Program-made: the position numbers and the translations under genes
Part shown: positions 14,608 to 30,072 of the stretch, one piece after another
Numbering within the stretch: position 1 is the first letter of the stretch
Layout: each line of letters starts with the position of its first letter
Notes under the pieces: generated by a model
What the model was told of the DNA's origin: nothing
The model's database searches: none
Seen by the model: only the letters and a program-made list of their open reading frames with translations
NCBI GenBank assembly: GCA_023150875.1
Contig: JAKLKC010000059.1
Location: forward strand, 1-38,804
Direction of reading: 5' to 3'
From: Myxococcota bacterium
Lineage (GTDB): Bacteria > Myxococcota_A > UBA796 > UBA9615 > JAKLKC01
Length of the DNA stretch: 38,804 nucleotides

Positions 14608-15642
14608 TCAGCGATAGAGAAGTCCGAGCGGGGTGACGGCGGGATCGCCGATGTCCATGTACATCTCGTACTCCGGCACGTTGCCGTAGTAGCCGAGGTA
14701 GTCCACGAAGTCGGCGACGGTGTAGCTGCCGATGGTGTGCCCCTCGTCGATGACGTCGCTGTAGTACAGGTCCGTGAAGAAGCTCCCGAGGTCGGCGCCC
14801 GTGAGGATGGGGTAGCCCGTGAAGCCGCAGTCCGTGGACGTCGGCCCGGAGTACGACACGCTGGCGAGCACCCCCAGGCAGTCGGGACACCCGTCGCTCC
14901 CCATGTCCAGCCCGTCCATCTCCCACAGATCGGAGCACAGCGCGTTCTGCCCCGCGTCGAAGTAGGTGAGCTGCAGGGTGCCCGAGAAGGTCGAGGCGTC
15001 CACCGAGAGGTCAAAGACCGGCCCGATGTAGGCCACCGATCCCGCGTCGAGCCCGAAGATCCACCACACGTACCCGGTCCACGCGCCCTCCAGGGGTCCG
15101 ACGCAGTCGGCCGCGGGGCACGAGAGCCCGTCGTCCGTGGCGCCGTTGCAGTCCTGGTCCCGGCAGTCGCACACCTCCGGGGCCCCCGGGTACGCCCCCG
15201 CGTCCCCGTCGTCGCAGTCCCCCGCGCACGGCGAGATCCCGTCCAGGTCCCCGTCCCAGTCCTCGTCGATGGCTCCGTCGCAGTCGTCGTCCTCGGCGTT
15301 GCACAGCTCGGGCGCGCCGGAGTAGGTGGTGGCGATGGCGTCGTCGCAGTCCCCGGCGCACTGGGTGTGCCCGTCCGCGTCCCGGTCGAAGCCCTCGTCG
15401 ACGGTCCCGGAGCAGTTGTCGTCGGCGCCGTTGCAGACCTCCGGGGCGCTGGGGTTCACCGCGGCGTCGGCGTCGTTGCAGTCCGTCGCCACGTTGAACC
15501 CGTCGCCGTCGCCGTCGTTCCCCTCGGGCAGGACTCCGGAGTCGTCGTCCGCCTCCTCCTGGGGCGCGGTACCGCACCCCGTGGCCCAGACCAGCGCCAC
15601 CAGCCCGAGGACCGCCCCGATCCGAAGAGTCCCACGCGCCAT
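14608..15642 (-). CDS. Lipoprotein with three MopE motifs
   Basis: A 344-residue lipoprotein with a signal peptide ending in A-T-G-C23, a short acidic linker (EEADDDSG) and three MopE-type metal-binding repeats: DGDGDGFNVATDCND..., DRDADGHTQCAGDCDD... and DGDLDGISPCAGDCDD... Each is followed by PSAPEVCN/PGAPEVCD-type segments. The C-terminal half (from about residue 180) is Tyr/Gly/Asp-rich beta sequence with a few cysteines (WWIFGLDAGSVAYIGP, LQLTYFDAGQNALC) and matches nothing I recognise. The ATG at 15642 is chosen because the signal peptide starts there; the longer frame would begin inside a dispersed repeat. Surface location and cation binding are likely; function is unknown. Confidence 0.83.
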   Translation of the reverse strand: MARGTLRIGAVLGLVALVWATGCGTAPQEEADDDSGVLPEGNDGDGDGFNVATDCNDADAAVNPSAPEVCNGADDNCSGTVDEGFDRDADGHTQCAGDCDDAIATTYSGAPELCNAEDDDCDGAIDEDWDGDLDGISPCAGDCDDGDAGAYPGAPEVCDCRDQDCNGATDDGLSCPAADCVGPLEGAWTGYVWWIFGLDAGSVAYIGPVFDLSVDASTFSGTLQLTYFDAGQNALCSDLWEMDGLDMGSDGCPDCLGVLASVSYSGPTSTDCGFTGYPILTGADLGSFFTDLYYSDVIDEGHTIGSYTVADFVDYLGYYGNVPEYEMYMDIGDPAVTPLGLLYR

Positions 15643-15695: not shown

Positions 15696-15722
15696 ATGGT
15701 ATCACGCCCCGGCGGGTGTCAG
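15696..15722 (-). promoter_or_regulatory. Extended -10 with a repeat-borne -35-like box
   Basis: On the minus strand TGA-TACCAT (15696-15704) forms an extended -10 element 53 nt upstream of the ATG at 15642. CTGACA (15717-15722) lies 15 bp further upstream, inside dispersed repeat copy 1. The 15-bp spacing is short, so the -35 assignment is tentative. Confidence 0.4.
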
Positions 15723-15742
15723 GCACCAACACTTTTACATTT
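15713..15742 (+). repeat. Dispersed REP-like repeat, copy 1
   Basis: Thirty bases, identical to three other copies in the window. The left part, GGTGT-CAG-GCACC, can fold into a small hairpin (one G-U or G-T pair). It continues AACACTTTTACATTT, which is strikingly AT-rich for this genome. It sits between two minus-strand genes. Confidence 0.85.
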
Positions 15743-15775
15743 GTTCGACCCGGGTGCGGCGGGTGTCAGGTGCGG

Positions 15776-15805
15776 CGGGTGTCAGGCACCAACACTTTTA
15801 CATTT
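15776..15805 (+). repeat. Dispersed REP-like repeat, copy 2
   Basis: Identical 30-bp element 63 bp from copy 1, preceded by a truncated copy (GGGTGTCAGG at 15761-15770). It overlaps the 3' end of the minus-strand gene 15782-17272 and supplies its stop codon and last eight or so residues. Confidence 0.85.
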
Positions 15806-17272
15806 GTGCAGCTCCCTCCGGATCCGGCGCCGGGCCCATGCCGCCCCCAGGAGCCCTGCGGCGACCGGAGGTGCCGACCCGGGGGGAGGCCCCGCCGCGC
15901 AGGCGCAACCTCCTGGGGCCCACTCGTCTCCCTCCTGCCGTCCGTCGTCATCGTCCGCCGCATCGTCGTCCGTCACGTCGTCGTCCCCGCCCGTCGCGTC
16001 GTCGTCGGGGGAGGAGTCGTCGTCACCCCCCGTGTCGTCGTCCCCAGCCGCGTCCGACTGCACGAACTGGCCGGCGACCCGGGCGTAGTCCACCACCGTC
16101 ACCACCAGCCACCGGGGAGAGTCCGGATCGGCGACGGCCCGGGGCTGGTACACCCCCAGCGGGGCCAGGGTGCGGGTGACCATGAAGACGTCGCCGGGGA
16201 CGCCGTCCGAACCCACCTCCACGCCGTAGACCTCGTGGGTGCCGTCGGACTCGTCGGGCCCCTGGAACACCGCGAGCCAGGAGTCCGCCACGGCGCTGAA
16301 GCCGAGCCCGATCCCGTCGCCCCCCTCGAAGATGGGCGTGGCGGCGGCGGGGATCACGTCGCCGATCCGCTGGCCCTCCCCGTCGACCCGGGCGCCGTAG
16401 ACGTCCCCGCCCCCCTCGCCTCCCCACCAGGTGACCGCGAGGTACTGGTTGGAGTTGGAATCGTAGGCGACCTCGGGGTAGTGGTTCAGCCCGTCGTTGG
16501 AGTAGAGGTCCAGGCGATCCGAGACGGGCTCTCCCGTCGCCGCCGACACCCGCCTCCCGGCGACGACCTGGGTGCCCTCCTGGGGCTCGGTGACGTAGAC
16601 CACGAAGTACTCGTCCTGGAGGGAGTTCCAGGTGACGGCGGGGAAGGAGTCGAAGGTAGGCCCCGAGCCGATGTCCAGCTCCGGGCCGAACGGCCGGGCC
16701 GAGGCGTCGACGAGGCGGGCTTGGACGTCCACGAACCCCGTCCACTCGCCCCAGGTGACCAGGCACTCCCCGGTGACGGCCGAGCAGGCGGAGCTCGGCG
16801 CCGCCTCCAGGTACTTGGGGCTCTCGCCGTCGTCCACCTCGATGGGATCGCCGACGAGCTCGGGGCCCGTTCCCGTGTACCGCACCAGGCGGGCGCCGAT
16901 GTCCTGGTCGCTCGGAGACACCTCGTCGATCCACGTCACCAGGAAGGCGCCGGCCCCGGGGTGGTACGCCACCCGGGGCGAGAGGGCGGTGGGACTCGGG
17001 GCGATGGTGAAGGGGCCCGAGAGCAGGGCGCCGTCCCGGGCGACGAAGGCACCGGTGATGGTGAGCTGGCCCGAGACCACCAGGAAGACCCCGTTCTCGG
17101 GATCGAAGGCGGCGTCGGGGAAGCGGGTGGTGCCGTCCCGGGGGAAGACGGTGAAGGTATCCCCCGCGGGCTCCGCGGCTCCCGCGAGCCGAAAGGCCGC
17201 CGCGGCGACGACCAGGGCAACCCACCGCAACACGCGGGCCCCGCCGGCCGCCCCCCGCCCTCGCCGGTCCAT
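15782..17272 (-). CDS. MYXO-CTERM surface protein with propeller-like repeats
   Basis: A 496-residue secreted protein; GGAGG lies 7 nt before the ATG at 17272. A basic N-terminus and hydrophobic helix ending L-A-G-A-A form the signal peptide. The body has about seven repeats, each with a hydrophobic strand of the type (F/Y)-L-V-x-W/V (FLVVSGQ, FLVTWID, CLVTWGEW, YFVVYVTE, YLAVTWWG, WLAVFQG, WLVVTVVDY), suggesting a beta-propeller. Near the C-terminus comes an Asp-rich linker (GDDDTGGDDDSSPDDD...), then DEWAPGGCACA, a hydrophobic stretch and ARRRIRR: a MYXO-CTERM-like sorting signal. The final residues E-L-H-K-C-K-S-V-G-A come largely from dispersed repeat copy 2. Its relative at 23963 carries the same repeats but a lipoprotein anchor. 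Confidence 0.85.
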   Translation of the reverse strand: MDRRGRGAAGGARVLRWVALVVAAAAFRLAGAAEPAGDTFTVFPRDGTTRFPDAAFDPENGVFLVVSGQLTITGAFVARDGALLSGPFTIAPSPTALSPRVAYHPGAGAFLVTWIDEVSPSDQDIGARLVRYTGTGPELVGDPIEVDDGESPKYLEAAPSSACSAVTGECLVTWGEWTGFVDVQARLVDASARPFGPELDIGSGPTFDSFPAVTWNSLQDEYFVVYVTEPQEGTQVVAGRRVSAATGEPVSDRLDLYSNDGLNHYPEVAYDSNSNQYLAVTWWGGEGGGDVYGARVDGEGQRIGDVIPAAATPIFEGGDGIGLGFSAVADSWLAVFQGPDESDGTHEVYGVEVGSDGVPGDVFMVTRTLAPLGVYQPRAVADPDSPRWLVVTVVDYARVAGQFVQSDAAGDDDTGGDDDSSPDDDATGGDDDVTDDDAADDDDGRQEGDEWAPGGCACAAGPPPGSAPPVAAGLLGAAWARRRIRRELHKCKSVGA

Positions 17273-29933: not shown

Positions 29934-29963
29934 CGGGTGTCAGGCACCAACACTTTTACATTT
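29934..29963 (+). repeat. Dispersed REP-like repeat, copy 3
   Basis: Identical in all 30 positions to copies 1, 2 and 4. It lies in the distal unit of the 109-bp tandem duplication. Confidence 0.85.
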
Positions 29964-30042
29964 CCGCGGCAGACGGCTTCGGCGGGCCTGGTGGGCCGGT
30001 GGGGGCACTCGAGGGGCGCCTACCGGAGCCCGCCGATACCCC

Positions 30043-30072
30043 CGGGTGTCAGGCACCAACACTTTTACATTT
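30043..30072 (+). repeat. Dispersed REP-like repeat, copy 4
   Basis: Identical to the other copies. It lies 58 nt downstream of the stop codon of the minus-strand gene 30130-30483, in the same orientation relative to that gene as copy 2 is to its host gene. Confidence 0.85.

Follow-up and report, generated by a model that had tools for sequence, protein, structure and literature searches.

The closest described counterparts of the repeat considered here belong to the inverted-end arrangement named TIRtron, or TIRYT for its TIR-associated tyrosine transposase (Di Nocera et al. 2013, PMC3733652). This arrangement probably corresponds to subclass 2.1 of the TnpAREP enzymes as outlined in PMC6006769, and enzymes of the TnpAREP type are reported in PMC8266576 to cut both 5′ and 3′ of REP hairpins. 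Termini of GTAG REPs have been described as providing stop codons to flanking ORFs (PMC3733652). For MYXO-CTERM proteins, PMC11980579 reports that a C-terminal FLAG tag placed after the sorting signal is removed from TraA and MXAN_4924 of M. xanthus in a myxosortase-dependent manner, the removal of such tags being carried out by MrtX, that the conserved cysteines of the signal are required for cleavage, and that the proposed cut lies on the distal side of the conserved cysteine.

The window analysed here (38,804 nt; contig C135, one of 180 in a 6.92-Mb Myxococcota genome) contains a gene for a MYXO-CTERM surface protein, P0001, whose 3′ end coincides with one copy of a 28-nt repeat. The favored reading, given a probability of about 0.74, is that this copy (copy 2) is the solo end of a TIRYT/RAYT element, lodged at the 3′ end of the gene, to which it lent a stop codon together with a tail that would be discarded, leaving the change near neutral. 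Resemblance to TIRtrons extends to a Y1 transposase whose C-terminal region may be HTH-like, to ends near the motif GGGGWSAS, and to moderately abundant, clustered solo ends, some of which overlap the transposase gene. The copies in this genome differ in reading GGTGTCAG, one mismatch from that motif, in having a hairpin at the outer end only, and in flanking the transposase as direct repeats. As with GTAG REPs, a short dispersed palindromic repeat lies at gene 3′ ends and donates a stop, and the end of P0001 is a new case of this published phenomenon in another repeat class; here, however, the stop is TGA or TAA, T variants offering TAG as well, and the consensus GGTGTCAGGCACCWACACWTTTACATTT has no GTAG tag beside its palindrome. 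P0001 shares with the MYXO-CTERM/myxosortase system (TIGR03901; PMC11980579) the Cys motif, TM helix, Arg cluster, and N-terminal signal-like segment, and differs by its repeat-encoded tail beyond the Arg cluster.

The repeat family and the end of P0001

P0001 has a signal-peptide-like N-terminus, an Asp-rich linker, and a C-terminal region reading ...GGCACAAGPPPGSAPPVAAGLLGAAWARRRIRRELHKCKSVGA up to the stop; no Pfam family was matched in a Pfam profile search. The NCBIfam model TIGR03901 aligns with residues 453-485 at 21.6 bits (cut-off 20). Translation terminates with ...GLLGAAWARRRIRRELHKCKSVGA, and the final eight codons, AAA TGT AAA AGT GTT GGT GCC TGA, are the reverse complement of 15782-15805, the repeat beginning at residue 490 (Table 1). 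The first-pass annotation had proposed that the gene reads past its Arg cluster into copy 2 and takes its C-terminus and stop from it, and this was borne out: KCKSVGA and the TGA all lie within 15778-15805, the exception being the residues RELH, which link the Arg cluster to the repeat-encoded tail and come from outside the repeat. As read from the sequence, the host gene borrows the TGA of the repeat and acquires the tail KCKSVGA. A concrete route is thereby shown by which the end of a mobile element is turned into coding sequence. Gene limits were taken from a home-made coding scan with seeded training, which was used in place of self-trained calling from the longest ORFs, since the latter settled on antisense frames.

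Table 1. Features of the window around P0001 and the four repeat copies
Feature	Positions	Strand	Basis or remark
Downstream lipoprotein-like gene (MARGTLRIGAVLGLVALVWATGCG...)	14608..15642	-	coding scan prefers start at 15600
Repeat copy 1, orientation as copy 2	15715..15742	+	sequence match
Truncated copy GGTGTCAGG, same local flank as copy 2, boundary stutter	15762..15770	+	9 nt flank + 9 nt repeat shared
Repeat copy 2, 28-nt solo element end, TIR-like	15778..15805	+	GGTGTCAGGCACCAACACTTTTACATTT
P0001 repeat-encoded codons K C K S V G A + TGA stop	15782..15805	-	translation vs repeat
P0001 gene, secreted MYXO-CTERM surface protein, 496 aa	15782..17272	-	translation, coding scan, profile match
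MYXO-CTERM sorting signal (Cys motif, TM helix, Arg cluster), complete, upstream of repeat	15818..15916	-	TIGR03901
Repeat copy 3, intergenic	29936..29963	+	sequence match, coding scan
Repeat copy 4, intergenic	30045..30072	+	unique sequence after copy 4 same as after copy 3

Within the window, the 30-nt form of the repeat is matched exactly at 15715 and 15778 and with two mismatches each at 29936 and 30045, and 100 dinucleotide shuffles of the window yielded no match. Across the 6.92 Mb of the genome the 13-mer core GGTGTCAGGCACC, which forms a short hairpin, was found 54 times, against no occurrence of its reversed control, so chance does not account for it. These occurrences comprise 50 full copies, three truncated copies inside clusters, and one unrelated coding match (L012); that the repeat is mobile-type DNA is supported. 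The copies fall into 34 clusters, 16 of them multi-copy and none of mixed orientation. Window copies 3 and 4 are a tandem duplication of repeat plus flank. Paired copies 61-109 nt apart share their downstream unique sequence in the window (29936-30072) and at L013, L022, L024, and L035, and the repeat and its flank were therefore tandemly duplicated after insertion.

A 17-nt pattern (core plus tail start) was absent from the 70 other genomes of the class, and the 28-nt pattern (21 fixed positions) retrieved only two stretches among contigs of 84,980 species, a collection from which this genome's own records may be absent. One is a Calidifontibacillus site; the other lies on a contig titled Planctomycetota bacterium (L122, JAKLKS010000292.1) that is 100% identical over 904 bp to locus L009 of this genome and is therefore possibly wrongly binned. 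The 13-mer is also plentiful in three of 377 genomes (G005, 18 occurrences; G190, 26; G221, 4), which were dropped as members of the family because their sequence contexts differ, that of G005 being the inside of a longer palindrome. A literature search with the exact 13-mer returned no relevant paper.

A transposase bounded by the repeat and a built-in stop

Two Y1_Tnp matches are present in the genome, on contigs C114 and C139. The repeat bounds the C114 gene on both sides: two copies in direct orientation shortly precede the start codon, and a third follows the stop codon at a distance of 5 nt. Its product matches the Y1 (IS200-like) model PF01797 at 24.2 bits (cut-off 23) and the REP-associated tyrosine transposase model NF047646 with an E-value of 1.4e-17, at 63.9 bits and hence below the cut-off of 80; residues 246-289 match MarR_2, HTH_24, and HTH_23, each below its cut-off. 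The protein would group by sequence with TIRYT/TnpAREP subclass 2.1, yet no terminal inverted repeats flank it, and because the flanking copies are direct it is not a textbook TIR element. No donor element for the repeat copies was seen. The C139 gene (L041) has its own, longer palindromic repeat family downstream and was rejected as the source of the 28-nt repeat, to which those repeats are unrelated.

Relatives of the C114 transposase (E ≤ 1e-30) occur in 33 of the 282 genomes of a phylum sample, this genome counted, and 54 of their loci, all from other genomes, were examined. Many carry inverted ends starting GG(G/T)GTC(A/G)G, and in most of the 19 other-genome loci tested these ends scored well above shuffles, the exceptions being L212, L217, L218, and L225. 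The 28-nt repeat looks like the solo end of such a TIRYT element. At 15 of the 54 loci the final 28 nt of the right end include the stop codon of the transposase; the L208 transposase, for example, finishes ...ENGSA and its stop on GCC TGA CACC, the same context as GGT GCC TGA CACC in the window.

Read in its stop direction, the repeat presents TGA in one frame and TAA in another; copies in which position 14 is T add a TAG in the remaining frame. All three frames of the opposite strand are open. Genes ending inside copies according to the coding scan are P0001 (KCKSVGA), L013 (NVNV), L026 (NVKV), and L039 (EM), with L023 (EM), a low-complexity gene that also ends in a copy, as a doubtful addition; the four well-supported cases and the doubtful one together use three frames. 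At L022 and L036, genes read through copies via the open strand. Element ends readily terminate host genes because a stop is built into the end, and the double use of that end as the stop of the transposase itself in 15 of the 54 relatives is the suggested reason. For L026, nine of ten homologues examined stop 1-19 residues from query positions 549-559 (about 550-575 of 575), while the alignment of the tenth, L193, reaches only 529. As these homologues without the repeat stop near there, the copy at L026 sits immediately beyond the point where the protein would naturally end.

A one-sided stutter at the outer boundary

Next to copy 2, a truncated copy repeats both the local flank and the first nucleotides of the repeat. 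Such a stutter was scored wherever 4 nt of local flank followed by GGTG recurred within 120 nt upstream as a truncated copy. It was present at the outer side of 21 of the 50 full copies, the truncated copies holding 4-15 nt of repeat, and in the mirror test on the inner side at none of the 50. Permuting the flanks among sites gave on average 1.44 stutters, and never more than 6, in 1000 trials, and background 8-mer recurrence amounted to 2.4% in these loci and 4.5% in neighborhoods just downstream. Plain tandem-duplication overlap was evident in 13 of the 19 nearest partial copies tallied. Of 62 ends belonging to related elements from other genomes, 10 carried the stutter (permuted mean 0.88, maximum 5) and none did so on the inner side; the ends concerned belong to L207, L209, L210, L213, L216, L223, L262, L265, L266, and L276.

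The outer boundary is tentatively read, at somewhat under even odds, as a site of polarized microduplication in which about 4-14 nt of flank and the first 4-15 nt of the element are repeated in tandem, always on the outer (hairpin) side, as a footprint of TIRYT nicking and of the way ends spread or multiply in situ. Slippage at the hairpin could produce duplications as well, but gives no evident reason for consistently sparing one side. The preferred reading, a working hypothesis, is transposase cleavage just outside the element followed by repair copying. A narrow literature search returned no earlier report of the stutter, and in the literature examined the reaction of this transposase group has apparently not been worked out, for which the stutter offers a testable sequence footprint. 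Further work is best directed at this polarity and at the second role of the element end as stop codon of the transposase itself.

Origin of the present C-terminus and fate of the tail

No orthologue of P0001 was found in 57 other genomes. Matches at E ≤ 0.001 occur in 16 of 58 genomes, full-length ones being confined to its own genome and those beyond it covering only the Asp-rich/CTERM region. Because the searched set thus holds no repeat-free orthologue, we infer the insertion into P0001. The sole paralogue, on contig C170 (L059), is 71% identical, lacks the 28-nt repeat, and has a different tail after the Arg cluster, PTPAGSGPRPAGLLARPAPPE and then the stop. This agrees with the P0001 tail being acquired, although the C170 gene has an insertion of its own: roughly 155 bp bounded by inverted ends (CAGGGTCGCCAGGAATGGAGTTCC...) separate, in frame, the MYXO-CTERM Cys motif from the TM helix.

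The first-pass annotation further proposed that the insertion probably removed or replaced an original stop. When the outer flanks of copies 1 and 2 are joined, the reading frame stays open over some 26 codons and continues into the next gene, which would fit a lost original stop but commonly arises by chance. The same continuity, an uninterrupted frame from P0001 into the lipoprotein once 15715-15805 is omitted, raises the alternative that the two were formerly one frame, cut in two by the TGA of the repeat. Precedents exist, in that 12 of the 65 MYXO-CTERM matches of this genome, judged by eye, and 5 of 26 relatives' loci run in frame into a second signal sequence. Such a split is nevertheless unlikely: the continuity has a chance of about 0.2 (one frame in three, multiplied by an approximate probability that 26 codons lack a stop), the linker of about 40 residues would exceed those of the fused genes, and the neighbor of the C170 paralogue is an unrelated gene. 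That the natural stop of P0001 always stood here, the repeat having derived from or converged on this sequence, is scarcely credible: nothing was found in its favor, and 50 near-identical copies at unrelated loci and the differing paralogue speak against it.

In the favored sequence of events, the solo end of a TIRYT/RAYT element would have settled at the 3′ end of P0001, presumably through single-strand cleavage by the genome's Y1 transposase, as its family suggests. In the outward direction, starting at its AT-rich side, the repeat contains a TGA that can serve related autonomous elements as the transposase stop; P0001 now uses this codon, together with the tail KCKSVGA. The tail lies beyond the Arg cluster, on the cytoplasmic side. 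Myxosortase would cut near the conserved cysteine, and the tail would be lost with the rest of the CTERM peptide, so that the change would be close to neutral.

The first-pass annotation also held that MYXO-CTERM tails end soon after the Arg cluster. For the 55 of the 65 matches in this genome whose stop lies inside the fetched DNA, this mostly holds, the domain being followed by a median of 2 residues; it fails for the 10 that run at least 11. P0001, with 11 residues after the domain, is long and inside the observed range. The KCKSVGA tail is probably discarded, because a C-terminal FLAG after the signal is removed in the tagged proteins of PMC11980579; with a short cytoplasmic extension tolerated in TraA and MXAN_4924, loss of the tail is the simplest inference. 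It is quite improbable that the tail instead alters processing, its extra Cys or Lys residues changing lipidation, cleavage, or retention, and that the insertion was selected. Its length against the median and the cysteine requirement of cleavage (PMC11980579) would speak for this, yet the extra Cys faces the cytoplasmic side, the FLAG tag leaves cleavage unblocked (PMC11980579), unrelated gene types end in copies in other frames, and the tails of L088 and L141 contain Cys where the repeat is absent. A functional effect of KCKSVGA is thus unlikely, and the donation of the stop was probably harmless to the protein.

Internal MYXO-CTERM signals, called rare in PMC11980579, are present in this genome at L065, L069, L076, L089, L127, L128, L137, L145, L146, L147, L152, and L154 and in relatives at L228, L235, L237, L238, and L251. 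No stop interrupts the frame after the Arg cluster, which is followed by a further signal sequence, in many cases with a lipobox-like LxGC, and then by another ectodomain. A strict lipobox scan, which under-calls fusions evident by eye, flags 4 of the 61 matches with enough DNA. These genes may encode polyproteins that yield two surface proteins.
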